A stretch of 30,195 nt of DNA from Gemmatimonadota bacterium (lineage in GTDB: Bacteria; 4572-55; J002), in contig RFFQ01000044.1 in NCBI GenBank assembly GCA_003697105.1, positions 1-30,195 on the forward strand, in the 5' to 3' direction. The notes beneath the pieces were generated by a model. It did no database searches. It worked only from the letters and a program-made list of their open reading frames with translations, and was not told where the DNA came from. Numbering within the stretch: position 1 is the stretch's first letter; every line of letters begins with the position of its first letter. Made by a program: the position numbers and the translations under genes. Positions 4,251 to 30,195 of the stretch are shown here, one piece after another.

Positions 4251-4256
4251 AAATCG

Positions 4257-4287: not shown

Positions 4288-4349
4288 CTACCGGATAAGT
4301 GATGAGGTTAGTTGTCTTTCGGTTAATTTCGATGTGAACATGGTCTGCC

Positions 4350-6506: not shown

Positions 6507-6518
6507 TGATAATCTCCC

Positions 6519-6552: not shown

Positions 6553-6591
6553 AACATCCGTATAATAGATTATGAGTATATATTAATATGT

Positions 6592-6611
6592 GTCCCCCGC
6601 CACGGCGGGAC
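6592..6611 (-). other. GC-rich hairpin downstream of nuoK
   Basis: A perfect 6-bp inverted repeat CCCGCC/GGCGGG (6596-6609) with a 2-nt spacer, extended by GT/AC at the outer ends. It lies 20-40 nt after the nuoK stop and is followed on the minus strand by a very AT-rich stretch. It could partly stop transcription or protect upstream mRNA from 3' decay, changing the ratio of nuoA-K to nuoLMN transcripts (inference). Confidence 0.5.
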
Positions 6612-6630
6612 GGCGATACTGTATGTTGGG

Positions 6631-6936: not shown

Positions 6937-6938
6937 CG

Positions 6939-7436: not shown

Positions 7437-7449
7437 ACTTCTCTCCTTT

Positions 7450-8043: not shown

Positions 8044-8068
8044 GATTTCACTCCTTGTGGCATACGGC

Positions 8069-9256: not shown

Positions 9257-9303
9257 ACAAACCTCATCTGATAGTTAGCGATTCAACATCGATGGCGGGG
9301 TAT

Positions 9304-9333
9304 GGCAACGGGATAATTCGGGTATCCCGTGCC
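9304..9333 (-). other. Stable hairpin in the nuoD-nuoH spacer
   Basis: An 8-bp perfect stem ACGGGATA/TATCCCGT with a 7-nt loop, extended by GGC/GCC around a single bulged A. It sits in the middle of the 97-nt gap between the nuoD stop and the nuoH start. No T-run follows, so it is probably an mRNA processing or stability element, not a terminator. Confidence 0.6.
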
Positions 9334-9353
9334 GGTCAATATCCCTCTGTGAA

Positions 9354-10472: not shown

Positions 10473-11113
10473 AATTTATCTGTCCTGTTTGTTTGTAATC
10501 CGAGTTCCGTAAAGCGGCGTACTTCTTCGGTGGGTTCGGTTTGTCCGGCAAGGAGGTTCGCCGGAGCTTCTTCCCACGGGTCGCGGGTGTTATCCAAGCC
10601 GTGATAGTGGGTGGGCTTAACGTAATCTTTTCGCAATGGATGCCCTTCCCAATCATCCGGTAGTAATAACCGGCGCAATGCCGGGTGTCCGGTAAATTGA
10701 ATCCCAAAAAGATCATAAATTTCGCGTTCAAACCAATTTGCTACCGCCCATAATGAACTCACCGTTGGGATATTGGGTGCTTCGAGCGGGACATCCACCT
10801 TAAACGCCACTTTATGTTGGTGGGAGTAGGAAAACAGATGGTACACCGCCTGCAACTTTCCATCTTGGTTGTCAACACCGCTGAGACACATCAGATAGTC
10901 AAATGCAAAGTGAGGTTCGGTTTTGAGGGCGTGGCAGACCTCATAAAGATGATCCGCCATTACATAAAAATGGGGGTCAAGGTAAACCGGCTTTTTAGGG
11001 GGCTTTTTCCCTTTGGGGGCGGCAGGAACTTCTGCCATAGTGATGTCAAAATAACCATAGACACTATCGCCAAAAGTTTCTCGCAAAGCTTCATATATTT
11101 CGTGAACCGTCAT
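10469..11113 (-). CDS. nuoC: NADH-quinone oxidoreductase (complex I) subunit C (30-kDa type)
   Basis: A peripheral-arm structural subunit of 214 residues from this ATG. The C-terminal signature [20 protein letters not shown] followed by [18 protein letters not shown] is unmistakable. A basic-Pro stretch (KGKKPPKKP, around residue 35) is an insertion near the N-terminus. A GTG nine bases upstream, directly abutting the nuoB stop, is also possible (217 residues); I prefer the ATG because TAGGTG lies seven bases before it. It overlaps nuoD by four bases. Confidence 0.95.
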
Positions 11114-11122
11114 ACGTTGCAC

Positions 11123-11644
11123 CTATTCCGATGGAGGGGTCGGGGTTTCGGGTTTCGGGGTTTCTTTTTTTGCCAGATAGGGTTCTTGCTTAACTTTTTC
11201 CTGTAATTTCATCAATCCTTCCAGCAAAGCTTCCGGGCGAGGCGGACAACCGGGCACGTAAATATCAACCGGCAAGATTTTATCAATACCGTTGAGCGTC
11301 GCATACCCCAATTGAAACAGACCGCCGGTATTGGAGCAACTGCCCATGGAAATCACATATTTAGGTTCCGCCATTTGGTCGTATAACCGGCGAATCCGGG
11401 ATGCCATTTTCAGGGTTACGGTGCCGGCAACGATGATCAGGTCGGCTTGCCGCGGGGTGGAACGGGGTACCGCTCCAAACCGGTCAAAATCAGAACGGGG
11501 ACCACCGGTTTGCATCAATTCAATCGCACAACATGCCAGTCCAAACAGCAGATACCACTGGGAATTGGCACGAGTCCATGCTAGCATATCATCCAGCCGG
11601 GTGACCAGAATATTATCATCTAAAGCGTGATTAATGTTGATCAT
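11123..11644 (-). CDS. nuoB: NADH-quinone oxidoreductase (complex I) subunit B, N2 cluster
   Basis: A 173-residue subunit that holds the terminal [4Fe-4S] cluster N2, which reduces quinone. The ligand cysteines are present: tandem C38-C39 (FGLACCAIE), C103 (GSCSNTGG) and C133 (VPGCPPRPEALLEGL). Residues 159-173 form a short Lys/Pro/Thr-rich tail. I start the gene at the ATG at 11644, because AAGGAGG precedes it and it overlaps the nuoA stop as ATGA. An in-frame upstream ATG would add 45 residues that only reflect an alternate frame of nuoA. Confidence 0.97.
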   Translation of the reverse strand: MININHALDDNILVTRLDDMLAWTRANSQWYLLFGLACCAIELMQTGGPRSDFDRFGAVPRSTPRQADLIIVAGTVTLKMASRIRRLYDQMAEPKYVISMGSCSNTGGLFQLGYATLNGIDKILPVDIYVPGCPPRPEALLEGLMKLQEKVKQEPYLAKKETPKPETPTPPSE

Positions 11645-12036
11645 GCGTCCTCCTTTGCAATCTTCTTGATCCAGTCCAAATCTCCTTTTGCCCATACGTA
11701 CACCAACCCGACCAGCAAAATCGCCACAAACAGCATGATTTCCGTAAACGCAATGATACCCACATTGTTGGCAATCCAATTCTTAAACACAACGGCGGTG
11801 GGATACATGAACACAATTTCCACATCAAAGATCAGGAAAATCAACGCGATCAGATAAAATCGCAGGTTGAACTGAATCCAAGCCGGTCCCTCCGGCTCTT
11901 CCCCGCACTCATACGGCGCATTTTTGCTGGTGCTGGGGTGTTGCGGGGCGATTATCCGGCTGAGCGTGATAGCTACCCCCACAAAAACCAAGGCGACCGC
12001 GATGAAGATCAAAACATTGGTATAATCGAACAACAT
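11641..12036 (-). CDS. nuoA: NADH-quinone oxidoreductase (complex I) subunit A
   Basis: A 131-residue membrane subunit with three transmembrane helices, at the interface of the two arms near the quinone site. The conserved loop YECGEEP (around residues 42-48) and the FDVEIVF motif are both present. It is the first gene of the operon, with AAGGA about eight bases before the ATG and a sigma70-type promoter about 90 nt upstream. Confidence 0.96.
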   Translation of the reverse strand: MLFDYTNVLIFIAVALVFVGVAITLSRIIAPQHPSTSKNAPYECGEEPEGPAWIQFNLRFYLIALIFLIFDVEIVFMYPTAVVFKNWIANNVGIIAFTEIMLFVAILLVGLVYVWAKGDLDWIKKIAKEDA

Positions 12037-12316: not shown

Positions 12317-14341
12317 TCATTTGAGAAGTACCATTGTCCGGGTTTCGCTACGGTCCCCACTGGTGAGACGGTAAAAATAAGTGCCAGAGGAAACCGTGTT
12401 GCCCTGTTCATCGTCACCGTGCCAGGTGTAGGCATAGGTTTTGCCGCCCAGCAGTTCTTCGTCATATACCGTTTTGACCAATTGTCCCGTAATGGAGTAA
12501 ATCTGGAGGGTTGTATGAGCTGTTTCGGGGATAAAAAAGCGAATTTGGGTTTTGGGATTAAACGGGTTCGGCACATTCTGGTAGAGGGTTACCTGTTGGG
12601 GTACACTGATTTCCCCGTCATCCGGTCCCACATCGAGTAATACATCCTGAATGGTGCATAGAACCCATCCATTTGGGTCGAGTTCGGCATCCACCGGTTG
12701 GGCATCTACATACACATACGCCGTCTCAAATGCTTCATCCACGTCGATCACTGCCGTGTGGACATCCCCGGTGATCAACGTAATTTCGACTTCCAGCGGC
12801 ATTTCAAAAACGGTCTCTTCCGGCTGAATTTGCCCCACTTGTAATTCGACACGGTATTGATCGCCAACGGATTCCGCCCCCCATGCAAAGGTGTACTGCG
12901 GGTAATCGTAGTTGTAAATCCACTCATCAAAGAACCAGTCTAAATCCTGTCCGGTCACTTCCTCGCAGGCGGCTTTGAATTCTTCGGTTGTGGCACTTTC
13001 GTAAGCGTTTTGCTCGGCATAGAGCGGGAAAATGTCAAAAAAAGCCTCATCGCCCACTACCCAGCGCAACATGTGGAGCACGGAACCCCCTTTATCATAT
13101 TGGGCGGCACAAAAGAGATGTCCGGGCGGTGGATCGTAGATTGCATGGGCGGGGCTGTGCCCGTAAATGTAAGTCTCATGAAAATCACGAACCCAATCAC
13201 GCAGGCCTTCCTCGCCTTCCAGATATTCTGCCCAAAGGGCTTCACTGTAGGAGGCAAACCCTTCGTTTAGCCAGATTTCGCGCCAATCCATGGGACCGAC
13301 CAGATCGCCCCACCACTGGTGTCCCAACTCGTGGGCATTGATCCAATCATAGCGGTGGTCACCTCGTACCAACCACTGCCCGTAGCTGGTCATCGTCTGA
13401 TTTTCCATCGCGCCGCCCCACGGATAGACCACCATACCGTATTTTTCATCGAGGAACGGATATTCCACTTGGAACGCACTGGCAAGCGCATGGATAATAT
13501 CATCGGTGACACTAAAATCTTCTTCTGCCGCCGCTTGTTGCTCTGGATAGATGTAATATTTGATCTCCATGGAATCGGTCTCGGAGTAATGATACCAATC
13601 GGAAAAGGTGATAAATTCGGAGGCCGTGATTGCCATCAGGTAGGTTGAAGTGCGGTAATCCGTGCGCCATACATGGGTACTGGTGGCATCGGCTTCATCA
13701 ATAATTTCGATCAAGCGCCCATTGGTTGCCACCAACCAATTATCGGGGATGCGAATGCGGTATTCAACCGTCGCTTTGTCATCTGGCACATCGTGGCATG
13801 GCATCCAATAGCGTGAACCTTCCGGTTCGTCTTGCGTCCAGATGACCGGATCGCCGTAGCGGCTTGTGGTGAACTCCATACCGTAATCTTCCCCCGGACT
13901 GCTCGGATTGCCCCGGTAACGGATTGCCACGCTGAATGCTTCATTTTCGGCGAGCGGCTCATCAAAAAAGATTTCAATTTCGTGGTCTGCATGATTATAA
14001 TCTAAAGTGACATCATTCATTGTAATTTCATTCACGACCATATTATCCCGTAGATGGACAATAATGGATTCCAAACCCTCCACGTTGCTGTGGCAATCCA
14101 TCGTCACGGTGCCAGAGATAGACCCTTGTGAATAACTTAACCGGACATCTATCTGATAATGCTCGACATCGTAATCATACTCATCTTCGGTGCGTAAGTC
14201 TCTCGTCCGATCTCCATCGGGAGCAGGCAAAAGGGCTTTGTGGGCACAACCGAGTAATTCGGTCATCCGGTTAGACTGGGCGTGTACCCAACTGGTGTGA
14301 CCCAACACGACGAGCACGAAAAACAGGCGTAAATAACTCAT
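12317..14341 (-). CDS. Secreted M1-family zinc aminopeptidase with type IX sorting domain
   Basis: A 674-residue exported metallopeptidase of the gluzincin M1 family, which removes N-terminal residues from peptides. Residues 1-21 are a signal peptide (VHA-Q cleavage). An N-terminal beta domain spans about 55-240. The catalytic domain shows the exopeptidase motif GGAMEN (309-314), zinc motif H337-E-L-G-H341 with third ligand E360 in WLNEGFASY, and Tyr415 as likely transition-state Tyr. Instead of the large helical C-terminal domain of aminopeptidase N, it has a short beta region and a type IX sorting domain (VPNPFNP at 590-596, ending MVLLK). All catalytic residues are intact. The start has GGAGG six bases upstream. 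It is divergently transcribed from the giant surface protein and probably serves extracellular peptide feeding. Confidence 0.93.
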   Translation of the reverse strand: MSYLRLFFVLVVLGHTSWVHAQSNRMTELLGCAHKALLPAPDGDRTRDLRTEDEYDYDVEHYQIDVRLSYSQGSISGTVTMDCHSNVEGLESIIVHLRDNMVVNEITMNDVTLDYNHADHEIEIFFDEPLAENEAFSVAIRYRGNPSSPGEDYGMEFTTSRYGDPVIWTQDEPEGSRYWMPCHDVPDDKATVEYRIRIPDNWLVATNGRLIEIIDEADATSTHVWRTDYRTSTYLMAITASEFITFSDWYHYSETDSMEIKYYIYPEQQAAAEEDFSVTDDIIHALASAFQVEYPFLDEKYGMVVYPWGGAMENQTMTSYGQWLVRGDHRYDWINAHELGHQWWGDLVGPMDWREIWLNEGFASYSEALWAEYLEGEEGLRDWVRDFHETYIYGHSPAHAIYDPPPGHLFCAAQYDKGGSVLHMLRWVVGDEAFFDIFPLYAEQNAYESATTEEFKAACEEVTGQDLDWFFDEWIYNYDYPQYTFAWGAESVGDQYRVELQVGQIQPEETVFEMPLEVEITLITGDVHTAVIDVDEAFETAYVYVDAQPVDAELDPNGWVLCTIQDVLLDVGPDDGEISVPQQVTLYQNVPNPFNPKTQIRFFIPETAHTTLQIYSITGQLVKTVYDEELLGGKTYAYTWHGDDEQGNTVSSGTYFYRLTSGDRSETRTMVLLK

Positions 14342-14679: not shown

Positions 14680-17600
14680 ATGCAACATGTCATATCAGTT
14701 TGTTTATTGTTTAGTTTTCTTCTAATCGGGGCGATGGGCGGTGTTTTGACCTCGGCGTATGCAGACCCGCCGAATTGGAACTACAATCCGGCGGATTTCC
14801 AATATACTGCCAATGTCACGGGTACACTTCATATTAATACAGAGATGGCTGTGGGAGATTCTCATGTGGTTGCCGCGGTGGTGAATGGTGATATTCGCGG
14901 TATTGCCGCCGGGCAGGCATTTGGTGATGTCTGGCTGTATTTTCTGACGATCTCCTCCAACCAAACGGAGGGTGAGGAAATCCACTTTCAGGCATACGTC
15001 GCGGATTACGATCAGGTTGTCGATATTGATGAGACCCTTACGTTTGTCCCAAATGCCATCTACGGTAATCCCTTGCAACCCTTTGTGTGGAATGGTTACG
15101 CCGACTTTGACTTTCCTCCAGAGGTTACCGGTATTCCGGATCAGACCATCGAGCAGGGAAGTACGTTTGTCTCATTCGATTTGGATGATTATTTGATTAC
15201 CCGCGATAGCGATCCCGTTCAGTGGTCGTACAGCGGTAATCAAGAGTTACAAGTCGTGATCGACAACGATAATCGGGTGAGCATTACCCCCCCGAACGCA
15301 GATTGGCTTGGCAGCGAAACGATCTATTTTACCGCCACGGATGTGAGTGCCAATCAAAAATCAGATTCAGATTCTGCCACATTCACTATCCGCCTGCCGG
15401 ATTTACCCCCGCAAATCCTCCCGATTCCCGATCAAACCATTGGCCAACAGGATATTTTCGATCCGGTTGATTTGGATGACTACTTGATCGAGGAAAACGG
15501 CGATTCCGTCCAATGGACCGTGACCATGGAAATCCCAACCGCCGGTCAAGCCCCACCCACCTGGTCAGTAAATCCGGTAGATTATCAATTTTCCATGAAC
15601 ATTACGGCTCGGGTTTCTGCCTTTGCGCGTTATCCTACCGGCGACACTCACCTATTAGGAGCGTTTATCAATGGAGAGGTTCGAGGGGCAGCAACCGCCG
15701 TTGAAATGGGTGAAGATTGGCTGTATTTTCTCACCGTGTACACCAATACCATCAACGATACCGTACACTTTAGCTTTTATGATGCCGATGCTCAAGATTC
15801 GCTTCCGGCGTTTCAATCGATTCCGTTTGTGCCCAGTGCAGTCTATGGTTCTCCACTTGATCCGTTTCAAATTGATGCCGGTTATCTGCGGATTGACATC
15901 GATGATGAGAATCTCCTCACCTTTGATTTGCTGGACCCCGAATGGACGGGTATTCATACGCTCAATTTCCGGGTGCAGGATGTGGGCACTGCCAATGAGT
16001 TTTACGCCACGGATCAGGCTGTTTATACGGTGTATCCGGATCATACGCCTCGCATTATGCCAATCCCGAACCAGACCATTGAAACTACCGAACAATTCAC
16101 CCTCTTTGATCTCGATGATTATTTAATTGAAGATGATGGGGATGAGGTTGTCTGGACGGTGAGCGGGCAGAATGAGCTTTCAGTTGAAATTGGGCCCATT
16201 ACCCACCGGGTGACCGTTACCCCACCCACAACCACCTGGACTGGAAGCGAAACGGTGACGTTCCGGGTCACCGATCAAACCCCGAATCAATTTTTTGATA
16301 CACGAGAGGTTACGTTTACCGTTGTTGACCGGGATGACCCACCCGATGTAATTCCGATTCCGGATCGTGCCACCGGTATTGCCGGTAGTTTCGACCCGAT
16401 TGATCTGAATTTCTATCTGGTGGAAGTGGACGGTGACTCCATTGAGTGGTCGTATGAATTTGTGATAACCCCGCAAGGGGAAACCGCACCCACGTGGTCG
16501 GTCAACCCCAACAATTACCAATTTTCCATGAATATGACCGCGTTGGTTTATGCGCGTGGACGCCAAACGATGGGTGATAGCCACATGCTGGGTGCGTTTG
16601 TCGGTGATGAAGTCCGGGGGGTGTCACAAGCAATACAAATGGGGGATATCTGGCTCTATTTTATGACCATTTACGCCAATGAGTCCGGGGAAACCGTTGA
16701 ATTCCAATTTTTTGATGCTCTTGCGGAAGAAACGTTTCCGGTCTTCCAAACGCTGGAATTTGTCCCGAGTGCCGTCCACGGTAACCCGCTTGATCCCTTT
16801 ATATTGGATGCCGGTTATCTGCGAGTCTCCATCACCCCAGATGATTTTGCCGTGATTGATATTCAAAATCCGGATTGGACCGGTAACCAAACGGTGAAAT
16901 TTAAAGCGACTGATGTCGGCTCCGTGCGGGGATACTCAGACTCTACGTTCACCACCTTTACGGTATATGCCGACCATGCACCGGTACTGGCAGGCATCCC
17001 CGATCAAACGGTGGAGCAGGGTCAGGATTTTGCCCTATTCGACCTCGATGATTATCTGACCGAACTCGATGGGGATGAACTGGTCAATGTGATCAACGGT
17101 AATGTCAATTTGTTGGTGGATATCAGCGCCCAAAATTTGGTTTATGTCCACCCAATTGACCCCAATTGGTACGGCACGGAACACATCCGGTTTACCGTGA
17201 TGGATGTGACCCCGTTGGCATTCACCGGTACGGATACCGTCTCCTTTACGATTTTACCCTACGATAATCCTCCCCAACTCAACGGCATTCCAAAGCAAGC
17301 CATTGAACCCGGTGGACAGTTCACCCCCATTGATATGCGGCACTATTTGACCGAATTGGACGGTGATTCCATCGCCTGGAGCGTTCAATTTGAGATCGCA
17401 CCCCAAGGTGACCCTGCCCCGGGATGGACGGTATTCCCCACTGACTTCCAGTACACTATGAATATCACCGCCGCGGTCTCTTCTCAAGGGGATTACACTA
17501 CCGGTGGTGACCACATCCTTGCCGCCTTTGTTGGCGAATCCATCCGTGGAGTGACCCAGCCCATCGAAATGAATGGCAAATGGTATTATTTCCTGACCGT

Positions 17601-20600
17601 CTATGCCAATACCAGCGGCGAAACCGTGCGATTCGAGTTTTATGACGCCGACGTCGAAGCCGTCTTACCCGTCGCGGAAACGGTTACGTTTGAACCGAAT
17701 CGCATCCTCGGTAACCCCACTTATCCCCAAACATTGCGGGCAGGTTATCTGAGTATTTATATCGATGACCAGCAGATGGGACAGGTGGAAATCCTAGACC
17801 CCACCTGGTTTGGCACACAAGGGGTTATCTTCCGGGCGCAGGATGTGGGATCATTGCATGAATATGCGGATACAACCTATACCTCCTTCAAAATCGATCT
17901 AAAACCGGTGATCAACAATATCCCCGATCAACGGATTTCGTTCAATTTGGGTGAACGCTTCACAGAGATTGATCTGAATCGCTATACAAACAGTCCGGAC
18001 GGAGACCCTGTCACGTGGACGGCAACAAGCGGGCAACATCTAACCGCGACCATTAACGGGCAGATGGCGACCATCAGCATCCTTGATACGACGTGGACTG
18101 GCACAGAAAGCCTTATTTTTACGGCGACGGAAATCACGATGCTTCAACTCAGTGACACCGATACCGTCGATTTTACGATTTATGTGGGGCACCCGCCGCA
18201 ATTTACCACCCACCCGGATTCGACGGTGCTTGTCGGCAATCCATACACCTACAACATCGCCGCCACAGATGCCGACCTAAATGATCCGGTCACGTTGATG
18301 GCACCCACCAAACCTGATTGGCTCACCTTCACCCCGGGCACGGATCAAACCGCCACCCTGACCGGCACCCCGACCCTAAGCGACATCGGGGCGCACGAGG
18401 TCGTTCTAACCGCCACGGATGACCCCGGCAATGTCACGGAACAGCGGTTTACCATTGTGGTAGCAGATGTGAATCGCTTACCCTATTTTACCTCAACCCC
18501 AGATACGACTACCCCGGAAGGGAATGCGTATCGCTATGAAATCAGTGTCGCCGATACGAATCCCGGTGACGTGCTGACGGTTACCGCTCCGGCAAAGCCC
18601 GACTGGCTCACCTTGACCCCCGCCGGAACAAACACCGCTATTCTAACCGGAATTCCGGGGAATGACCATGTGGGACCCAATGAAATCACCCTACAAGTGA
18701 CTGATATTTTTGGGGCAATGCGCCAACAGAGTTTTCGGTTGTGGGTGATTAATGTCAACAATCCGCCTACCGCCAGAGATGACACGGTAAGTACGCCGGA
18801 AGAAACACCGGTCACCGTTAATTTAGCCCCGTTGGTGACAGATGTCGATGTCGGGGATTCTTTGACGTGGAATCTGTTTGATGGCGATCTCAGGGTGATC
18901 AACTATCAGATAAATAATGTTGCCCAAACAGTCACCTTTACGCCCGTTGCCGATTCCAACGGCACTTATACCATGCGATTGCGGGTGACCGATAGTGGGC
19001 ATGAAACCGCGTTTTCCACGATAACCATCTACGTAACACCCGTCAATGATGCACCCCAAGCGGCGACTCCGGCCAACATCCGTACCAACGAGGATGTGCC
19101 GGTAGTGCTCGATCTGGCACCGTATGCCACGGATATCGATAGCGACTCCCTAACATGGCAATTTTTAAGCGGGGATGGGCAAGTGAGCATCCGCATGACC
19201 GGAAATGAGGCTACCTTTACCCCCTCTCAAGATGTCACCGGTACGTTCAATTTTCAGTTTCAAGTTGCCGATGATAGCAGTGCTACCGATACGTTGCACG
19301 TTATCCTCACCATCGATCCAGTAAATGACCCGCCGGTGTGGGTGCATCCCCTACCAGATACCACCTTTGACGAGGACACCTCGATTACGTTCGACCTAAA
19401 ACCGTATGTCCAAGATGTAGAAACCAGTGTAGATGATTTAACATGGTCAACCGGTATGGCATTATTGCGGGCGGGTAATACCCCCACTGAAATTGTGCTC
19501 CAAAAGGCGACTCATGCCACTCGCTCCGGGTTACGTCCCCGATTGCGAGGTGTGACAGACCTCTCCAAAAGCATCGCCCCAATCGTGACAAAAGCACCGG
19601 CTTCTCCGGATCGAAATGAAGACATACCCGGCGACCTGCGCGAGAGTCAATTAACAATCCAGATCGATGATAATGGGATTGCTACCGTCACCCCCAATCC
19701 CGATTGGACTGGTAGCGAGGGAGTTGTTATCACCGTGATGGATGAAGATCAAGCTTCTGCCAGCGATACCATGACGGTTACGGTGCGAAATGTCAATGAT
19801 GTACCCCAATTCGCCGGTCTGCCAGACACGATCTTGCTGACCTTAGCCCATCCGATTGATTTGACATTGGGCGTCAATGACCCCGACGTGGGGGATAGTC
19901 ACACGTTTACCCGCCGGGTGCTAAGCGGGTTTGATAGCACGCTGGCAGAGATTCGAGACGGTAATATTCTGCATTTCAACCCAACTGTGGAGGGCACCGG
20001 CACTGTAGAAATTCAGGTGTCCGATACCGCCGGTAGCACGGATACGGATACCCTTTATGTCTCGGTTGAACCTGCACCACTCACGATTCAACGTCGCTAT
20101 GAAATTATCCGCGAACGGGATCAATTAGTACACATCTGTTTTGAGGTCTGCACGGATGACCCTCAATTCACGGTGTATGATTTTACAGTGAGCGATCCCC
20201 AAGCGGATGCCTATTTTTATGTCCGGGCCGATTCCATCGTCTCTATCACCGATCTGGTGGAGGTGCAGGTTGCCAACGAGTTTCAGGGTTGTACCGACCT
20301 CTGTTTTACGGTTGATCTAGCCGATTCCCGTCTCCCAGAGGAGGGTGGAATAACCCTTTTAACGGACCTCCAGTTCCACGGCGCCAATACAGGTGCTTTT
20401 TCTAGCCAATTTCGAGTGATCATCTTACCGGTGCTACCCGCGTCCATCATGGCATTGTTAGGCGATGTGGAGGATTTAACCCTCCAAGACCTGTGGCCCC
20501 TTGCCGATTTTGATGGTGATGGTCAAGTTGATGGCTATGATTTGCTGACCCTGATCTACGCTTACGGCTCCCAAAATGGCGATCCACACTGGAACGAGCG

Positions 20601-21465
20601 GTGCGATATCGGCATCAATGGTTTTCTTGACCTGATCGGGACCGATCAGCTGGTCAGCTTTGCCGATTTAGTTCGGGTTGCCTCGTACTACGGGCAAACG
20701 GCACTCGGCTCTACCATTGAAGACCCGCGCGATATTCCCGATGGCTTGCGGGAGGAGATCGACCCCCGCCTGACATTGGATGCCATCGCGGATACCACAC
20801 AGGTGACCGTTGATATTCGGGTGGAGGGGATGGATGACCTCTACGCTTATGAGTTGCTCTTGGATTATCCCGCCGACCGGTTGAAATTTGTCGGGGCGAA
20901 TGAGGGAGATTTCTTTAAGGCGCACCGGATGCCTTCCCTTTTTGCGCCGGTTCAAAATGTGGCAGAGCGGGGGCAACTTCGGTTGTCCGGCTCCAAATTG
21001 GGTGCGGTACGGGGTGTCTCCGGCTCTGGAGTGATTGCCACCTTGTTATTTGAGGTCACTAAACCGGGGACGTGGGCACTTGACCCCATTGAAGCGGTTT
21101 TGCTCAACTCCGATTTGCAACCGGTGATCGGTATTCCTCTGCAAGGCACTTCCGGCAAGACGCCGCTTCCGGTGCACCTCCCCGAAAACTATGCGCTTTA
21201 TCATGCCTACCCGAATCCGTTTAACCCCCAAACAACATTGCCATTTGCCTTGCCCGTGGCGTCCGCCGTCCAACTGCGCATTTACGACATCAGCGGGCGG
21301 CTTATCACTACGTTGGTAGATCAAAAACTGGAGGCGGGCTACCATCAGGTGGTGTGGGATGGCACAAATGCCACCGGAAAACCGGTAGCGAGCGGTGTCT
21401 ATTTTTACACACTCCAAGCGAGTCCGGCATTTAAAGAAACAAAGCAAATGTTGTTACTGAAGTAG
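14680..21465 (+). CDS. Giant secreted repeat protein: nested-domain repeats, Ig/cadherin-like domains, dockerin-like, cohesin-like and type IX sorting domain
   Basis: A 2261-residue exported protein, probably a surface adhesin or scaffold. Residues 1-28 are a signal peptide (AYA-D cleavage). Residues 30-146 are the first copy of a module (W-x-x-x-P-x-x-[FY]-x-[FY], GDxH...AAFV-x-x-x-[IV]RG, YFLT, FYDA). Three 310-residue composite repeats follow (151-1079), each an intact beta-sandwich (IPDQTI...DLDDYL...) and a second one interrupted by that module; a final intact sandwich begins at 1080. He_PIG-like domains start at about 1171 and 1267; tandem Ig/cadherin-like domains lie at 1362, 1458, 1551 and 1709. 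A four-Cys segment spans 1801-1920. A dockerin-like calcium loop (DFDGDGQVDGYD, from 1943) precedes a cohesin-like domain (about 2028-2154). The sorting domain starts near 2175 (YPNPFNP, ending MLLLK). No catalytic domain is visible. Function is inferred from architecture only. Confidence 0.9.
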   Translation: MQHVISVCLLFSFLLIGAMGGVLTSAYADPPNWNYNPADFQYTANVTGTLHINTEMAVGDSHVVAAVVNGDIRGIAAGQAFGDVWLYFLTISSNQTEGEEIHFQAYVADYDQVVDIDETLTFVPNAIYGNPLQPFVWNGYADFDFPPEVTGIPDQTIEQGSTFVSFDLDDYLITRDSDPVQWSYSGNQELQVVIDNDNRVSITPPNADWLGSETIYFTATDVSANQKSDSDSATFTIRLPDLPPQILPIPDQTIGQQDIFDPVDLDDYLIEENGDSVQWTVTMEIPTAGQAPPTWSVNPVDYQFSMNITARVSAFARYPTGDTHLLGAFINGEVRGAATAVEMGEDWLYFLTVYTNTINDTVHFSFYDADAQDSLPAFQSIPFVPSAVYGSPLDPFQIDAGYLRIDIDDENLLTFDLLDPEWTGIHTLNFRVQDVGTANEFYATDQAVYTVYPDHTPRIMPIPNQTIETTEQFTLFDLDDYLIEDDGDEVVWTVSGQNELSVEIGPITHRVTVTPPTTTWTGSETVTFRVTDQTPNQFFDTREVTFTVVDRDDPPDVIPIPDRATGIAGSFDPIDLNFYLVEVDGDSIEWSYEFVITPQGETAPTWSVNPNNYQFSMNMTALVYARGRQTMGDSHMLGAFVGDEVRGVSQAIQMGDIWLYFMTIYANESGETVEFQFFDALAEETFPVFQTLEFVPSAVHGNPLDPFILDAGYLRVSITPDDFAVIDIQNPDWTGNQTVKFKATDVGSVRGYSDSTFTTFTVYADHAPVLAGIPDQTVEQGQDFALFDLDDYLTELDGDELVNVINGNVNLLVDISAQNLVYVHPIDPNWYGTEHIRFTVMDVTPLAFTGTDTVSFTILPYDNPPQLNGIPKQAIEPGGQFTPIDMRHYLTELDGDSIAWSVQFEIAPQGDPAPGWTVFPTDFQYTMNITAAVSSQGDYTTGGDHILAAFVGESIRGVTQPIEMNGKWYYFLTVYANTSGETVRFEFYDADVEAVLPVAETVTFEPNRILGNPTYPQTLRAGYLSIYIDDQQMGQVEILDPTWFGTQGVIFRAQDVGSLHEYADTTYTSFKIDLKPVINNIPDQRISFNLGERFTEIDLNRYTNSPDGDPVTWTATSGQHLTATINGQMATISILDTTWTGTESLIFTATEITMLQLSDTDTVDFTIYVGHPPQFTTHPDSTVLVGNPYTYNIAATDADLNDPVTLMAPTKPDWLTFTPGTDQTATLTGTPTLSDIGAHEVVLTATDDPGNVTEQRFTIVVADVNRLPYFTSTPDTTTPEGNAYRYEISVADTNPGDVLTVTAPAKPDWLTLTPAGTNTAILTGIPGNDHVGPNEITLQVTDIFGAMRQQSFRLWVINVNNPPTARDDTVSTPEETPVTVNLAPLVTDVDVGDSLTWNLFDGDLRVINYQINNVAQTVTFTPVADSNGTYTMRLRVTDSGHETAFSTITIYVTPVNDAPQAATPANIRTNEDVPVVLDLAPYATDIDSDSLTWQFLSGDGQVSIRMTGNEATFTPSQDVTGTFNFQFQVADDSSATDTLHVILTIDPVNDPPVWVHPLPDTTFDEDTSITFDLKPYVQDVETSVDDLTWSTGMALLRAGNTPTEIVLQKATHATRSGLRPRLRGVTDLSKSIAPIVTKAPASPDRNEDIPGDLRESQLTIQIDDNGIATVTPNPDWTGSEGVVITVMDEDQASASDTMTVTVRNVNDVPQFAGLPDTILLTLAHPIDLTLGVNDPDVGDSHTFTRRVLSGFDSTLAEIRDGNILHFNPTVEGTGTVEIQVSDTAGSTDTDTLYVSVEPAPLTIQRRYEIIRERDQLVHICFEVCTDDPQFTVYDFTVSDPQADAYFYVRADSIVSITDLVEVQVANEFQGCTDLCFTVDLADSRLPEEGGITLLTDLQFHGANTGAFSSQFRVIILPVLPASIMALLGDVEDLTLQDLWPLADFDGDGQVDGYDLLTLIYAYGSQNGDPHWNERCDIGINGFLDLIGTDQLVSFADLVRVASYYGQTALGSTIEDPRDIPDGLREEIDPRLTLDAIADTTQVTVDIRVEGMDDLYAYELLLDYPADRLKFVGANEGDFFKAHRMPSLFAPVQNVAERGQLRLSGSKLGAVRGVSGSGVIATLLFEVTKPGTWALDPIEAVLLNSDLQPVIGIPLQGTSGKTPLPVHLPENYALYHAYPNPFNPQTTLPFALPVASAVQLRIYDISGRLITTLVDQKLEAGYHQVVWDGTNATGKPVASGVYFYTLQASPAFKETKQMLLLK
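15130..16059 (+). repeat. Composite coding repeat, copy 1
   Basis: Encodes residues 151-460 of the giant protein: one intact beta-sandwich domain (from GIPDQTI) followed by a second (from PIPDQTI at 248) that contains the nested module at about 292-400. Length 930 bp. Confidence 0.85.
16060..16992 (+). repeat. Composite coding repeat, copy 2
   Basis: Encodes residues 461-771 with the same order as copy 1: intact domain, then an interrupted domain from 558-559 with the nested module at about 603-712. Length 933 bp. DNA has diverged from copy 1, so the duplication is not recent. Confidence 0.85.
16993..17916 (+). repeat. Composite coding repeat, copy 3
   Basis: Encodes residues 772-1079: intact domain (GIPDQTV), then an interrupted domain (GIPKQAI, from 869) with the nested module at about 912-1024. 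Length 924 bp. It is followed by one more intact domain (NIPDQRI, from 1080) without a partner. Confidence 0.85.
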
Positions 21466-22574: not shown

Positions 22575-25085
22575 TTAAAGGTGCTGTTGGTGGGCAAAAA
22601 ATTCGGCGGATTCGGCACCGGTTTCGGTCTCTGGGGGGCGATGAACAACGAGTTCGACGCGGAAGGTGGTTCCCTGACCTTTTTGGCTGTGGACGGTAAT
22701 TGTCGCACCGTGTGCTTCCACAAACCGCTTGGAGAGGGCTAACCCCAACCCAGTGCCTTCTGTTTTGGTACTAAAAAAGGGATCAAAAATCCGTTCTTGC
22801 TGTTCGGGGGGTATGCCCACCCCCGTATCGCTAACTTCGATGAAGACCGTCTCTACTCCCATCTGAAAATTGATATTTTTCTTTACCCGGAGCGTCAGCC
22901 GTCCGCCGTTGGGCATCGCTTGTAGCGCATTTTGGAGCAGATTGATGAAGACCTGCTCCATTTTGCCTTCGTCGATGAATAATTCGGGGAGATTGTCATC
23001 GTATTCTTCCACAAATTCAATGTTGTCATATTCTTCCAAGATCATGCGGATATTGTACACCGGGCTCATCAACATCTCCCGAATCGGTACTAAACTGAGA
23101 TGCAATTCCGGTTCGCGAGAGAAACGCAACAGGTCTTTCACGATGCGATCCATACGTTTGATTTCGTCCAGCAGGGCATCCATCTGGCTTGCATCCTCAT
23201 CAGAGGCGGCGGTAGCTTGTGCCACCTGAATTCCGGTTTGAAGGGCGGCTAGGCTGTTTTTAATCTCGTGCGCAATTCGAGCCGACATTTCACCCATTTG
23301 CGCCAGATGTTTTAATTTTTGCTGTTCTTCTTCAATCGCTTTAATCAGGGTCAGGTCTGAGAAGAGTACGACCGCCCCCACCACGCGGTCATTGCCCCGA
23401 AGCGGTGCAATGCTGATCCCAATCGGGATTTCCACGTCGTCTTTCCGCCGGATTACGGTCTCTTTTTGGGACATCACCACGCCTTGCTCGATTACTTCCC
23501 GAAACGGGTCTGCCAGATCGAGTTCTTCGGCTAACGTGCTTAAATCCATCACGTTTTGTACCGGTTGCCGGACGACCTCTTCCCGTTTCCAGAGCAAAAT
23601 ACCTTCGGCGGCTTGGTTAAACGTTGTGATTCGGCTTTCCCGGTCAATTGTGAGGATGCCGCTGGCGGCATTTTGGATAATGCCTTCGGTAAATTCTTTT
23701 GCCGCGAGCACTTCGGCATGGGAGTGGCGTAATTCCCGGAACAGTTGGGCATTGCGGATGGCAATCGCCAGTTCATCCGCAACTTGTTCCAGCAGGCTGA
23801 GGTCTTTAGCGGCGTGACTTTCCAATTTACGGCTAAAAAGCTCCAACACCCCAATAATTTTTTCCTCAAACACCAGGGGTAACCGCACCGCTGACCGCAA
23901 CCCTTCCTTGAGGAGCAGTTTATCCTCGGCAAAGTGGCTCAGTGCCATATCGCGTTCAATATGCCGCCGCCGGCTGTAAACGATCCACTCGGCGGCGGTA
24001 GATTTCATTGATTGGTGTTCCAACAGGCGTTGGCGATACCCTTCCCCGACCCGGTAGAGGGCTAAAATTGAGGCATAATCAATATCCAGTTGCAAGGTTA
24101 AATGCCCGCCAATGGGGGCGCTGTGAGCCTGAACTTCAAACAGTACCAGATTTGCCCGGTCAATCAGGATCATCTGGGAAAGTTCTTGAACCACCACCCG
24201 GAACATAAATTCAATGTCCAAACTGGAACTGATCGCTTTTGTGATGGTATTGATAATGGTTAATTCGCGGTTGCGATGTTCCAGCTCCCGTTCGGCTTCT
24301 TTCAGATTCGTAATATCAAAGGAGACCCCTTGTGCGGTGTGAATGTTCCCCTTGTCGTCCTCCACGGGGACAATATTTTGCAATGTCCAGCGGACGGAAC
24401 CGTTTTTCTGAACCACGGGTATTTCTTCCGCGAGGATCGTCTCGCCTTGCCGCAGGCGATCCAGTAATTTTTGGTAGCGGGGGGCATACGTTTCGGGGAA
24501 CAGTTGGACGTTGCGCAATTTGAGTTCGCGCAAGGAGTAGCCTGTTTGGATTTCCGCTTCTTTATTGAAAAAGTCGATGGTGTCCCGTTGCAGGTCAATC
24601 ACAAAAATGGCGGCGGGGGTGATCTGTACCAGATTTTCCAGATAGTTTTGGGTGCGTCCCAGTTCCCGCTGGAGTTTTTTGTTTTGCCCGCGGATATTAC
24701 TGGTGACCAGCACATTATCAATGATGTTGAGCAACTCCGAGGTGCCAAACGGTTTAAGGAGATAAACACTCAAGCCCAATTCCAACAACCGCCGGCGGAT
24801 CGAGCTATCACTGCGTTTGGCGCTCAACATAATCACGGGTATATCGCGGCAGTCACTATATTGCGGGTTGGTCATCATTTCCTGAAAAACGGCTTCCCCG
24901 CTCATGCCGGGCAAAGTGGAATCCAGCAAAACTAAGTCGGGGTGCGTCTCTTGAATGCGTTCCAGACCCGTGATGCCGTCACTTTCCCACAAAAAGTGGT
25001 AGCCGGCGTCTTCCAACACGGATTCCAGCAACAACGCTAATTTTTGACTTTCGTCGATGAGTAAAATAACGGCAGGTTTATCCAT
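22575..25085 (-). CDS. Histidine kinase with N-terminal receiver, PAS, GAF and PAS domains
   Basis: An 836-residue soluble signalling kinase without membrane segments. Residues 5-125 are a receiver domain (D11/E12 acidic pocket, phosphoacceptor D55, S88, K111). A coiled linker leads to a PAS domain (about 145-262, with PAC end), a GAF domain (about 275-447) and a second PAS (about 462-580). The kinase core has H606 (H-box HEIKNSLAALQTG), N719 in the N-box, D753 (DTGVGIP) and the GTGLGL lid at 777-782, so it should be active. The receiver being N-terminal instead of C-terminal suggests its phosphorylation gates the kinase. No clear Shine-Dalgarno precedes the ATG. The partner regulator is not identifiable; it may be encoded elsewhere or be a receiver protein nearby. 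Confidence 0.94.
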   Translation of the reverse strand: MDKPAVILLIDESQKLALLLESVLEDAGYHFLWESDGITGLERIQETHPDLVLLDSTLPGMSGEAVFQEMMTNPQYSDCRDIPVIMLSAKRSDSSIRRRLLELGLSVYLLKPFGTSELLNIIDNVLVTSNIRGQNKKLQRELGRTQNYLENLVQITPAAIFVIDLQRDTIDFFNKEAEIQTGYSLRELKLRNVQLFPETYAPRYQKLLDRLRQGETILAEEIPVVQKNGSVRWTLQNIVPVEDDKGNIHTAQGVSFDITNLKEAERELEHRNRELTIINTITKAISSSLDIEFMFRVVVQELSQMILIDRANLVLFEVQAHSAPIGGHLTLQLDIDYASILALYRVGEGYRQRLLEHQSMKSTAAEWIVYSRRRHIERDMALSHFAEDKLLLKEGLRSAVRLPLVFEEKIIGVLELFSRKLESHAAKDLSLLEQVADELAIAIRNAQLFRELRHSHAEVLAAKEFTEGIIQNAASGILTIDRESRITTFNQAAEGILLWKREEVVRQPVQNVMDLSTLAEELDLADPFREVIEQGVVMSQKETVIRRKDDVEIPIGISIAPLRGNDRVVGAVVLFSDLTLIKAIEEEQQKLKHLAQMGEMSARIAHEIKNSLAALQTGIQVAQATAASDEDASQMDALLDEIKRMDRIVKDLLRFSREPELHLSLVPIREMLMSPVYNIRMILEEYDNIEFVEEYDDNLPELFIDEGKMEQVFINLLQNALQAMPNGGRLTLRVKKNINFQMGVETVFIEVSDTGVGIPPEQQERIFDPFFSTKTEGTGLGLALSKRFVEAHGATITVHSQKGQGTTFRVELVVHRPPETETGAESAEFFAHQQHL

Positions 25086-25588: not shown

Positions 25589-26422
25589 TTATCGTACAAG
25601 TAAAATCGGGATCATGGTATTGCGCATAACGGTTTCGGTGGTACTGCCCAATAACAACTCATGGATACGATTTTCGCCATAAGCCCCCATCACAATAATA
25701 TCACACAGTTGGGCATCCGCAACGGCAATAATGCTTTTTTCTGGGGCGCCGTCTTCATGCAGATAGGTAACGGTGAGTTGGAAGGGGTCTAAGTAGGTTT
25801 TGGCGTCTTCGAGTTTCTCTGTTGCCCACTCCTCATCACCAACGACTAACACGATTACCTCCAGATCAATCTCCGATGCCATGTTCGCCGCCACGTGCAA
25901 TGCTTGTGTGGCGTGTTCATCCCCGTTATAAGCGATCAGAATTTTTGATACCGTTTGTACTTGATCCGACGTTACCAAAATGGGGCGGTTTGCTTTGCGA
26001 ACAACTGCTTCCAATGTCGAACCAAGTAGGACCGACGACCACGAGGCGTGTTCCCCGTGCCGCCCCATGGTGACCAAATCCACATGGGTGGCGGCATCGA
26101 TAATCTCTTTATTGACAATACCAACGGTGAGATTAGAGGCGTATTTTAAGCCGCTCTCTTGTACCAGTTCTTCCGCCGACTTGAGGATTGCTCGCCCTCG
26201 TTCCTCCAAAATGGCCCGAATTTGTGATTGATAGTTGACCAGCGGCGCTGCCCCCAGCGAGGCAGAAATATCATGCAACAACGGACCTTCCAACGCCCGG
26301 ACATCAATCACGTGTAATAATTGCAAGTGCGCGTTGTACTTATCACCAATCCGAATGGCATAATCTAATGCCGTCTGACTATATTCGGAACCGTCTAAAG
26401 GCACTAAAATGGTCTTAAACAT
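25589..26422 (-). CDS. Tandem universal stress protein (two UspA domains)
   Basis: A 277-residue cytoplasmic protein made of two UspA domains (residues about 1-150 and 158-277). Each begins with a beta-strand (TILVPLDGSEYS; KILIAYNGDEHA) and ends with a nucleotide-binding glycine motif. Domain 2 keeps the canonical G-x2-G-x9-G-S (GAYGENRIHELLLGS), while domain 1 has one extra residue between the second and third glycine (GRHG...LLGS). ATP binding is likely at least in domain 2. I start at the ATG at 26422: GGAG precedes it, and the consensus promoter lies inside the longer in-frame extension, which excludes upstream starts. It is the first gene of a two-gene unit with the DUF1858-like protein. 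Confidence 0.93.
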   Translation of the reverse strand: MFKTILVPLDGSEYSQTALDYAIRIGDKYNAHLQLLHVIDVRALEGPLLHDISASLGAAPLVNYQSQIRAILEERGRAILKSAEELVQESGLKYASNLTVGIVNKEIIDAATHVDLVTMGRHGEHASWSSVLLGSTLEAVVRKANRPILVTSDQVQTVSKILIAYNGDEHATQALHVAANMASEIDLEVIVLVVGDEEWATEKLEDAKTYLDPFQLTVTYLHEDGAPEKSIIAVADAQLCDIIVMGAYGENRIHELLLGSTTETVMRNTMIPILLVR

Positions 26423-26459
26423 GAGCTTATTCTCCAAATTAGGGGTCTTGGTGATGCGC

Positions 26460-26487
26460 ATTATAGCGACTTTCACCAATTTGTCAA
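26460..26487 (-). promoter_or_regulatory. Consensus sigma70 promoter of the stress-protein operon
   Basis: On the minus strand, TTGACA (26487-26482), a 16-nt spacer and TATAAT (26465-26460). Both boxes match the sigma70 consensus fully. Expected transcription start is near 26453, giving a leader of about 31 nt. Confidence 0.88.
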
Positions 26488-26544
26488 CAGAAAATTTACC
26501 CCCCGACCCCACCGAGCAAAAGACAAACCCCCTTGATAAACCCC

Positions 26545-26573
26545 TTGACATCTCCCTCAAATTAAGAGATTAT
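26545..26573 (+). promoter_or_regulatory. Candidate promoter of the receiver-kinase fusion gene
   Basis: TTGACA (26545-26550), a 17-nt spacer and GATTAT (26568-26573). The -35 box is perfect and the -10 box matches four of six. Expected transcription start is near 26580, so the hairpin at 26593-26616 would lie in the mRNA leader. Confidence 0.6.
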
Positions 26574-26592: not shown

Positions 26593-26616
26593 CCTCTAAA
26601 AATCCGATTTTAGAGG
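26593..26616 (+). promoter_or_regulatory. Leader hairpin that sequesters the Shine-Dalgarno
   Basis: A perfect 9-bp stem CCTCTAAAA/TTTTAGAGG with a 6-nt loop. The 3' arm contains AGAGG (26612-26616), the only Shine-Dalgarno-like sequence before the ATG at 26626 (9-nt spacing), paired with CCTCT of the 5' arm. No gene reads into it that would need a terminator, and no T-run follows. It may be an RNA thermometer or other translational switch (inference). Confidence 0.6.
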
Positions 26617-26625
26617 TCTTATGCC

Positions 26626-28758
26626 ATGTCAAATTGTATTCTACTGGTTGAAGATAACGACGAATTCAGAGGAGCAATTCAATCCTATTTAGAATTGGAA
26701 GGATTCACAATCTACCCGGCCACTCAGGGTAAAGAAGCCCTCCATATATTGGAAGGTCACGCGGTGGATTGTATTCTTGCGGATATTATGATGCCCGTGA
26801 TGGATGGCTACGAATTATACCGCCGGGTGCAGGAAAATCCCCAATGGGCATGGATTCCTTTTGTGTTTTTAACGGCGAAAGGTACTGCTGAGGATATCCG
26901 GCAAGGTAAAGAACTTGGCGCAGATGATTATCTGGTCAAAACCGCCGAGCCGGAAGACATCATCGCCACAATTCGGGGCAAAATCAAACGCTCCCAAGCC
27001 CAAAAACAACATATCCCACCGGAAACCATCGCCGAGTATCGTACCCATCTGGCCCCCGGTGACCTCATCCGGCAACGGTACCAGATCATCCAAATATTGG
27101 GCGAAGGGGCGACAAGTCATGTCTATTTAGCGCAAGATACGACCCTGCCTGAGCGAACGGTGGCACTAAAACGGCTCCGCTTTACCCCCCAAATGAATGA
27201 TACGGAACAGAAACAAAACCGGCACTTATTTGAGCAAGAAGTACGCTTGTTAAGCCAGTTTCGGGAGCCTTGCTTTCCCCAATTGTATGATTTTTTTGAG
27301 GAGGGTGAGTTCTACTATTTGGTGATGGAATACATCGCCGGGGAAACACTTCTACAAAAAATTGATCGCGCCACTGACTTTTTCCCAGAAGAGCAGGTCA
27401 TTGAGTGGGGCATCAAGTGTTGCCAAGCGCTTTCGATTCTCCACACCCAAAATATCATCTTTCGGGATATGAAGCCGGGCAATATCATGATCACCCCTCA
27501 AAATCGGTTGGTTTTAATTGATTTTGGAGTCGCGCGGCTTTTCAAATATGTTCAACGGGATACCATTTTTGCCTGTACGGTGGCGTATGCCGCTCCCGAA
27601 CAATTACGGGGGTATTCCGATGCGCGCTCCGATATTTTCGGTTTGGGAGCGACCCTTTACCATGCCGCTACCCGCACCACCCGCACCGAGGAAACCTTTC
27701 CCCGTCCGCGGACACTGAACCCGAATATTTCACCCGCCTTGGAATACGTCATTACCAAAGCCCTTGAATTTGACCCAGATGACCGGTATCAAAGTGCCAC
27801 CGAATTTCAGCACGCCCTAGAACAAGTCCGTGCCCCGCACGTTGTCCCGGAAGAATCCTCCCCACCGGAAGTAACGGCGGCGCCTCCGCCCCCGATAGAA
27901 CCAACCCCCCAACACCCTTTTCAGACATCACCCCCGCTGATCAAAACGCCTTCTAAACCTCATAAAATCCCAACTTCGCACCGAATTCTTTTGAGTTTGT
28001 TAGGTGTCGTTGTGTTGGTTGGTTTTTCGTGGATGATCTTCCAACCCTCAGAACATGAGGATGTAACGCTCCAGCAAGTACCCGTAGAATCGACTCCGGC
28101 TGGGATGGTCCGCGTGCCGGGAGGGGTGTTTTGGATGGGCAATCCCGAAGGGTTTCCCGCGGAACGCCCGCAAATTCGGGTCGAATTAAACCCATTTTAT
28201 CTGGATCAGTACGAGGTCACCAATGCCGAATACCAACGTTTTGTGGATTCAACCGGGTATGATCCACCACCTCATTGGATTGGGGGGCGTTTTCCGCCGG
28301 GTAGCGGTCATCTACCGGTGACTTTTGTCTCCCAACCGGATGCTCAGGCGTATGCGGCGTGGGTTGACAAACGGTTACCCACCTCGGCAGAGTGGGAACG
28401 TGCCGCCAGAGGACTGGATGGACGGCTTTTCCCGTGGGGGAATACCTTTGATGCCAAAAAGAGCAATTTGCAAGGTGCGGAAGATGGCTATACGGCATTA
28501 GCACCGGTGGGTTCCCTACCAACAGACAAAAGCCCGCACGGTGTGTTCGATCTCGCGGGAAATGTCTCGGAATGGTGCCAGGATAATGTCCCGAATAAGG
28601 ACCCATTGGTGATTGTGCGGGGTGGACATTGGCAAGCCCCAGCAGACATTGCCCGGTGCACCTACAAACAGACGGTCCCGAAAACCGAACGCCGTGCCAC
28701 GCTGGGCTTCCGTTGTGCCATGGATGTCCAAAAAACATATTCTGCGAGCCGTGATTAG
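26626..28758 (+). CDS. Receiver-Ser/Thr protein kinase-TM-SUMF1 fusion protein
   Basis: A 710-residue signalling protein. Residues 3-120 form a receiver domain (E9/D10, phosphoacceptor D53, T83, K105; the usual Pro after this Lys is Thr106). Residues about 150-400 are a Hanks-type Ser/Thr kinase with glycine loop 158-169, K182 in VALKR, E205, catalytic D281/K283/N286, DFG at 299-301 and APE at 323-325. The HRD histidine is Phe279 (FRD). A Pro-rich linker (405-445) leads to one membrane helix (about 454-471), and residues 490-698 form a SUMF1/FGE-sulfatase-type domain (GGVFWMGN, EVTNAEYQRFV, RLPTSAEWERAARG, FPWGN, GNVSEW, RGGHW, GFRCA) that should lie outside the membrane. It lacks the paired cysteines of true formylglycine-generating enzymes; only C678 is near. 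The downstream gene lies 109 nt away on the same strand. Confidence 0.92.
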   Translation: MSNCILLVEDNDEFRGAIQSYLELEGFTIYPATQGKEALHILEGHAVDCILADIMMPVMDGYELYRRVQENPQWAWIPFVFLTAKGTAEDIRQGKELGADDYLVKTAEPEDIIATIRGKIKRSQAQKQHIPPETIAEYRTHLAPGDLIRQRYQIIQILGEGATSHVYLAQDTTLPERTVALKRLRFTPQMNDTEQKQNRHLFEQEVRLLSQFREPCFPQLYDFFEEGEFYYLVMEYIAGETLLQKIDRATDFFPEEQVIEWGIKCCQALSILHTQNIIFRDMKPGNIMITPQNRLVLIDFGVARLFKYVQRDTIFACTVAYAAPEQLRGYSDARSDIFGLGATLYHAATRTTRTEETFPRPRTLNPNISPALEYVITKALEFDPDDRYQSATEFQHALEQVRAPHVVPEESSPPEVTAAPPPPIEPTPQHPFQTSPPLIKTPSKPHKIPTSHRILLSLLGVVVLVGFSWMIFQPSEHEDVTLQQVPVESTPAGMVRVPGGVFWMGNPEGFPAERPQIRVELNPFYLDQYEVTNAEYQRFVDSTGYDPPPHWIGGRFPPGSGHLPVTFVSQPDAQAYAAWVDKRLPTSAEWERAARGLDGRLFPWGNTFDAKKSNLQGAEDGYTALAPVGSLPTDKSPHGVFDLAGNVSEWCQDNVPNKDPLVIVRGGHWQAPADIARCTYKQTVPKTERRATLGFRCAMDVQKTYSASRD

Positions 28759-28867: not shown

Positions 28868-30195
28868 ATGACCCAAATTTTGATTGTCGAAGATGAGCAA
28901 AGTTTACGAGAGGGGGTTGCAGAAGTTCTGGAACTGGAAGGCTACACCGTTTTAAGCGCTGAAAATGGGCAGATGGCATTAGACCTCCTCAACCAGCACC
29001 AACCCGATTTGATTGTGTGCGACATCATGATGCCGGAGTTAGACGGCTATGAGTTTTTGACCCGAGTTCGGCAAAACCCCCGGTTGAACACTGTTCCCTT
29101 CATCTTTTTGACGGCGAAAGTCTCCCACGATGACCAGCGCCATGGCATGAATTTAGGGGCGGATGATTATCTGACTAAGCCGTTTGACCCGGATGAGCTT
29201 ATTTCTGCTGTGGAAGCCCGGTTGGAACGGCACCAGAGCATGGTTGCCCCTTATGAAAAAGCACTGCAGGAGGCGAAATCAGAACAAGAGCGGATTCGCC
29301 AGTGCCTAGATGAAGCCGCCGAGCAATTCCGCCGCTTTATCCGGCTCTCCCCAGATGGCGTATTGATGATCGACCTTAAAGGCATCATTCATCTGGCAAA
29401 TCCAGCAATGCTACGGATGCTGAGAGCGGATCAACGGGATCACGTAGTCAAACACCCTATCCGCGATGTTCTGGTCGCAGAAGAAGTCAGCACAATGACC
29501 GCTTACTTACAGGATGTTATTGGAAATCCCGAACATCAAGGATTGCAGTTTGAAACCCAGTTTTTACGCCAAGATGGTACCACGTTCCTAGCCGAAGTGA
29601 CCATGGGATATTTTGAATTTGGTGACATCGCTGCCGCCCAACTGATTGTGCGCGATGTCACCGAACGGCGGCGGGTCGAAGCCGAGTTACGAGCCTTGAA
29701 TGAGCATAAAAACCGCTTTTTTAGCATCTTAGCCCATGATCTGCGCAATCCATTTACCGTCTTACTCGGTTCGATTGAACTCCTCATGGAAAATATCGAT
29801 GATTTTGACAAAACGGAAATTAAACGACTGGCGGAAACAATGGATATTTCGGCGAATACAGTATTTCGCCTCCTAGAGAATCTGTTACAATGGTCCCGGA
29901 TACAAATGGGACGGATGGAGATCGATCCCGCCCCGCTAGACCTCGCCGTGATTGCCACCCTAAACTTGGAATTGGTGCGAGAAAGCGCACAAGCAAAACA
30001 AATTCAGTTAATAAACCAGATCACTACCGAAATTCCCGCTTACGGAGATATGAACATGATCGATACCGTAATTCGGAATTTATTAACGAATGCTATCAAG
30101 TTTACACCGCCGGGCGGGAACGTTACAATTACCGCTCAGGTGAACGGAAATACGGCCGAACTGAGTGTCAGCGATACCGGAATCGGTATCAGCCC
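28868..30195 (+). CDS. Receiver-PAS-histidine kinase (3' end beyond window)
   Basis: At least 442 residues; the reading frame is open to the window end. Residues 3-120 are a receiver (E8/D9, phosphoacceptor D52, T82, K104 followed by P105). A coiled-coil linker (about 125-155) leads to a PAS domain (about 156-267, ending in RDVTERRRVEAEL). The kinase core has H290 in the H-box (ILAHDLRNPF), N408 in the N-box (RNLLTNAIKFTPPGG), and the first G-box DTGIGIS, where the window stops. The start ATG has AAGGAAGGA with an 8-base spacing. Its receiver closely resembles that of the upstream fusion protein (shared DIMMP, DGYE, PF/PFx-FLTAK and GADDYL blocks), so they look like paralogues, and the pair may be cotranscribed and exchange phosphate (inference). 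Confidence 0.92.
   Translation, partial: MTQILIVEDEQSLREGVAEVLELEGYTVLSAENGQMALDLLNQHQPDLIVCDIMMPELDGYEFLTRVRQNPRLNTVPFIFLTAKVSHDDQRHGMNLGADDYLTKPFDPDELISAVEARLERHQSMVAPYEKALQEAKSEQERIRQCLDEAAEQFRRFIRLSPDGVLMIDLKGIIHLANPAMLRMLRADQRDHVVKHPIRDVLVAEEVSTMTAYLQDVIGNPEHQGLQFETQFLRQDGTTFLAEVTMGYFEFGDIAAAQLIVRDVTERRRVEAELRALNEHKNRFFSILAHDLRNPFTVLLGSIELLMENIDDFDKTEIKRLAETMDISANTVFRLLENLLQWSRIQMGRMEIDPAPLDLAVIATLNLELVRESAQAKQIQLINQITTEIPAYGDMNMIDTVIRNLLTNAIKFTPPGGNVTITAQVNGNTAELSVSDTGIGIS

Follow-up and report, generated by a model that had tools for sequence, protein, structure and literature searches.

Domain organisation and predicted topology of the encoded protein

The window analysed here, meaning the whole stretch of 30,195 nucleotides, contains at 26626..28758 on the + strand an open reading frame that starts with ATG and, by its translation and Pfam, encodes a 710-aa protein with the order receiver (REC), Ser/Thr kinase, transmembrane (TM) helix and SUMF1 domain. 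One uninterrupted frame holds all three Pfam domains: Response_reg (residues 5-117, E=4.6e-26), Pkinase (residues 152-389, E=5.1e-38) and FGE-sulfatase (residues 492-698, E=5.6e-49), each match being far above the curated Pfam cut-off. An earlier sequence-only reading had proposed this domain order and D53 as the phospho-acceptor, and Pfam, motif positions and hydrophobicity bear out the order, the coordinates and D53. The receiver (26638..26976, +) was assigned by its Pfam match, by its motif positions and by PDB sequence matches, among them CpxR, a CheY-like response regulator and PleD. True receivers are distinguished from pseudo-receivers by five conserved residues, two acidic ones (DD), D, T/S and K (PMC12632262). 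All five catalytic residues are found here as E9/D10, D53, T83 and K105, and Asp53 (codon at 26782..26784, +), the phospho-acceptor by position, is invariant in the alignment; judged by these residues, the receiver has everything needed for phosphorylation. The switch position (K-3) is occupied by the aromatic Y102, and K105 is directly followed by Thr, not by the usual Pro (K-T).

The second domain (27079..27792, +) is a Hanks-type Ser/Thr kinase, whose nearest solved relative is PknB (E=1e-30). The residues that define such kinases stand in invariant columns and are intact: the catalytic lysine K182, the alphaC glutamate E205, F279-R280-D281 with N286, and D299-F300-G301. FRD takes the place of HRD, as is usual for the clade of this kinase, and T313 and T318 are the threonines of the activation segment. 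Matches to defence-system kinases were also obtained (PADLOC PD-T4-6 and mad6, and NCBIfam MAD6). Since they span essentially the kinase domain alone, and since the NCBIfam match scores far under the cut-off set for it, they say only that the domain is a Ser/Thr kinase, and the defence assignment was rejected.

The kinase is followed by a Pro-rich basic linker (residues 405-453; 27838..27984, +), read directly from the sequence and taken as cytoplasmic by positive-inside inference, and by a single TM helix (residues 454-472, ILLSLLGVVVLVGFSWMIF; 27985..28041, +) with a Kyte-Doolittle mean of 2.58 over 19 residues; by the same scale, no second hydrophobic segment along the 710-aa protein comes near it in rank. 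The helix is flanked by the basic stretch KTPSKPHKIPTSHR before it and by an acidic stretch after it. Because the basic, Pro-rich stretch precedes the helix, an arrangement with the REC and the kinase inside and SUMF1 outside fits the sequence. The protein therefore combines a kinase, one TM helix and a C-terminal SUMF1 domain, the three parts of a kinase-TM-SUMF1 receptor.

The SUMF1/FGE-sulfatase domain (28099..28719, +), taken as extracytoplasmic, was identified by Pfam and by alignment with SUMF2, its best solved relative (E=4.4e-28); enzymes of the FGE (formylglycine-generating enzyme) type are also among the most similar solved structures. SUMF2 is a SUMF1 paralogue that lacks FGE activity. 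The two catalytic, copper-binding cysteines of FGE (human C336 and C341) are replaced by A671 and A676, as assigned in an ungapped register from the RGG motif (RGG...GFR segment), and the Cys pair is also absent from the other kinase-linked SUMF1 domains that were inspected. With Ala at both positions, FGE activity is very unlikely, and the domain probably serves for binding rather than catalysis. The standing NCBI product name, 'bifunctional serine/threonine-protein kinase/formylglycine-generating enzyme family protein', suggests instead that the kinase carries an active FGE or another nonheme-iron enzyme. The strong match to the FGE-sulfatase family is what such a reading could draw on, but the alanines, the closeness to SUMF2 and the missing Cys pair in the other kinase-SUMF1 proteins inspected make it very improbable. 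Still less probable is that the C-type-lectin-like SUMF1 end is a hypervariable target of a diversity-generating retroelement (DGR). Classic DGR targets include SUMF1/FGS domains, which can sit behind many fused domains (PMC7159879), but no reverse transcriptase above the cut-off was found in the genome, and no near-repeat of the 3' end of the gene, which would serve as the DGR template, occurs in the window; a role as a DGR variable protein is thereby largely ruled out. The only RVT_1 match of the genome is a broken fragment with two stop codons (G000:C45:2695-2880).

Neighbouring genes and a candidate phosphodonor

A histidine kinase gene follows on the same strand, 109 bp beyond the REC-kinase gene (28868..30193, +; open-reading-frame list and Pfam). 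The sequence-only reading had named a neighbouring histidine kinase as a candidate donor; the histidine kinase is there, although, according to Pfam, it is more exactly a REC-first hybrid (REC-PAS-HisKA-HATPase). The contig end at 30195 cuts this gene, and the assembly lacks part of its HATPase domain. No terminator-like site was found on the + strand in the 109-bp gap, and no TM segment is visible in the hybrid kinase as assembled. Its receiver is the best relative of the REC studied here among the own-genome REC matches found (45% identity, E=3.6e-31), and the only one under E=1e-30, which suggests that the two adjacent receivers either have a local origin in common or work with the same partner. 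The downstream kinase is a plausible candidate donor for D53, and control of the Ser/Thr kinase by a histidine kinase is likewise plausible on this gene arrangement. It may be, however, that the histidine of the downstream kinase serves its own REC in cis, or another partner. For REC-first hybrid kinases, the phosphate on the N-terminal receiver is said to come from a different kinase (PMC9239204). The second hybrid histidine kinase of the locus (REC-PAS-GAF-PAS-HisKA-HATPase by Pfam; 22575..25085, -) lies upstream and is an alternative candidate donor.

Alternatively, the REC could act as a phosphate sink, competing with the REC of the hybrid kinase, or the protein could be a hub of cross-talk in which the Ser/Thr kinase phosphorylates nearby two-component proteins, the direction of control being reversed. 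In favour of this reading are the adjacency and 45% identity of the two receivers and the precedent of response regulators that are phosphorylated by Ser/Thr kinases (e.g., DosR in Mycobacterium tuberculosis). The linkage of REC and kinase nevertheless recurs in other phyla (below), which is a better fit to a REC acting on its own kinase, and we consider the sink or hub unlikely.

A universal stress protein gene (25589-26560, -) is divergent from the REC-kinase-SUMF1 gene. Between the two genes lies a perfect 9-bp inverted repeat, CCTCTAAAA-ATCCGA-TTTTAGAGG (26593..26616, +), of a kind of which 0 are expected by chance in the window. It ends about 10 bases before the start codon and covers an RBS-like GAGG, and it could be an operator or a hairpin that hides the RBS. 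Elsewhere in the window, a complex I cluster, nuoA-B-C-D-H-I-J-(K)-L-M-N, occupies 1199-12036 (-); it resembles the 11-subunit form, and no nuoE/F/G was found in the window between nuoD and nuoH. Three proteins, encoded at 260-1105 (+), 12320-14341 (-) and 14680-21462 (+), carry C-terminal sorting domains of the FlgD_ig / Por_Secre_tail type; they include an M1 peptidase and a 2261-aa Ig/cadherin-repeat protein. The presence of these three sorting domains suggests a type IX secretion system in the source organism.

Distribution and origin of the fusion

Above the Pfam cut-offs, the source genome (4.18 Mb, 97% complete) has 18 kinases and 6 SUMF1 domains, and both are found together in this protein alone; in blastp with its receiver, none of the other kinases of the genome proved to carry one. 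In the other genome of the phylum (n=2 with the source), the kinase and SUMF1 parts were unmatched at E<=1e-30 and the only match was a receiver. A REC-kinase or the full protein was searched for in about 1,050 genomes: 386 that were sampled broadly, samples from the phyla of G332 (350 genomes), G247 (264) and G145 (64), and two small phyla of 5 and 3 genomes. The triple fusion REC-kinase-TM-SUMF1 was seen in this protein only, as was membrane anchoring of a REC-kinase, in a search that was shallow for most of the genomes. In the large samples, 4-6 candidates were scored per genome and weaker examples could be missed; for this reason, the data support rarity of the architecture and not uniqueness. 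In the scan of named genome contigs, matches were mostly receiver-only. An apparent REC-kinase in G703 turned out to be two adjacent genes with a stop codon between them, and not a fusion. No paper describing a REC-kinase-SUMF1 protein was found, in a literature search that covered few subscription journals.

Simpler pairings of these domains are more widespread. REC-Ser/Thr-kinase fusions were found as ten Pfam-checked proteins from the phyla of G128 and G247, both other than the source phylum. Two of the ten (L166 and L170) have an Hpt domain before the REC-kinase, and all ten lack both SUMF1 and a clear TM helix. Kinase-SUMF1 proteins that lack a REC occur in G025, G332, G145, G458 and G704, and also on plasmids H1 and H2, of Candidatus Chlorohelix and Acaryochloris. 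The N-terminal receiver on a kinase-SUMF1 protein, unfamiliar to the earlier reading, is indeed rare (once in about 1,050 genomes searched at shallow depth), but a REC-first Ser/Thr kinase is not in itself new, as the ten proteins show. The other statement of that reading, that SUMF1 domains on bacterial Ser/Thr kinases are known, is confirmed, the pairing being common enough to have an NCBI product name. As each pairing is already known, the new part, judged by domain content, is the joining of a REC-kinase unit to a TM-SUMF1 module.

The origin of the fusion was addressed with a tree of 58 kinase domains. This kinase falls in a clade of mostly FRD/YRD kinases (support 100/99), at the base of which stand two other kinases of its own genome, L018 and L019. 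A separate clade (support 100/99) unites the REC-kinases from the phylum of G128 with that of G948, a genome from another phylum. A common clade of this kinase with that main REC-kinase family is rejected (AU p=3.5e-5). By this test, the receiver was joined to a Ser/Thr kinase independently here. A single example leaves room for a receiver that was fused recently and has little effect. That the fusion arose repeatedly and independently favours a real regulatory, and useful, coupling of REC and kinase, though it stops short of proof. The tree also brought out a soluble REC-Ser/Thr-kinase family common to two phyla (L166 and L170 from G388 and G387, and L217 from G948), some members of which are Hpt-REC-kinases. 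In this family, a direct link from a phosphorelay to a Ser/Thr kinase is possible.

Proposed regulation and comparison with known systems

The reading that we put forward, at about even confidence, is that the protein is a membrane-anchored response regulator with a Hanks-type Ser/Thr-kinase output and a second, extracytoplasmic input through SUMF1. It is proposed that the cytoplasmic receiver is phosphorylated on D53 by a histidine kinase, perhaps the adjacent REC-PAS-HisKA hybrid. The receiver in this state would then alter how the kinase domains pair or dock, the simplest route being dimerisation via its alpha4-beta5-alpha5 face, and this change would promote trans-autophosphorylation of the activation segment (T313/T318). 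The activated kinase would in turn phosphorylate Ser/Thr targets. The single helix would keep the protein in the membrane, and the non-catalytic, C-type-lectin-like SUMF1 domain would bind an outside ligand or partner as a second, independent input, or else would anchor the protein at a site. The sequence itself gives the domain order, the intact REC and kinase active sites, the TM helix, the loss of the FGE cysteines and the separate origin of the fusion; the phosphotransfer, its donor, whether it raises or lowers kinase activity, and the ligand of SUMF1 are what we infer in this scheme. The response-regulator reading is supported by the presence of all five REC residues, by the intact kinase and by the tandem genes with no terminator-like site between them; the Thr after K105 and the fact that the adjacent kinase has its own REC count against it. 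More tentatively, both inputs may control the one Ser/Thr kinase as a coincidence detector, the histidine kinase writing to the receiver and the outside ligand binding to SUMF1.

The main rival is a transmembrane receptor kinase driven mainly from outside, in which SUMF1 would sense a ligand and control the kinase. The receiver would then be a modulator, would serve for docking or localisation, or would itself be phosphorylated by the kinase. The form found elsewhere, kinase-SUMF1 with no REC, agrees with such a receptor. Moreover, the periplasmic domain of Xanthomonas PknS seems to hold its kinase in check, and PknS needs this domain to function (PMC13147305), so the main input can come through an extracytoplasmic domain. 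On the other hand, the receiver keeps every catalytic residue, which a pure scaffold would not need, and genes for hybrid histidine kinases lie on both sides of the locus. On balance, we regard the SUMF1-driven receptor as possible but doubtful.

In bacteria, two-component signalling is usually considered apart from the eukaryote-type Ser/Thr network. A receiver placed directly on a Hanks-type kinase makes a direct link between them testable, and the present protein has, beyond that, a membrane anchor and a domain outside. If the coincidence-detector reading is true, the two great bacterial phosphorylation systems would be linked within a single molecule. In a survey of thermophilic cyanobacterial genomes, a possible involvement in Ser/Thr phosphorylation is mentioned for response regulators (PMC9953108). 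The soluble bacterial REC-kinases (L162-L170, L213, L217-L220) likewise have the REC directly before a Hanks-type kinase, with a short linker; they differ in having no clear TM helix and no SUMF1, and the kinases of their main group belong to another clade by the AU test given above. These proteins, including the two-phylum family with its Hpt-REC-kinase members, offer a comparison set for switching by receiver phosphorylation. Kinase-SUMF1 proteins share the kinase, the C-terminal SUMF1 domain and, where inspected, the loss of the FGE cysteines, but lack the N-terminal receiver. Fungal Rim15 also combines a protein kinase and a receiver in one chain; however, it is eukaryotic, its receiver is C-terminal and often lacks the Asp (PMC12632262, PMC8510515), and it has no SUMF1. 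In response regulators whose output is enzymatic, for example PleD (REC-GGDEF), a REC likewise switches a catalytic output domain, whereas in the protein described here the output is a Ser/Thr kinase and the whole is membrane-anchored, with a domain outside.
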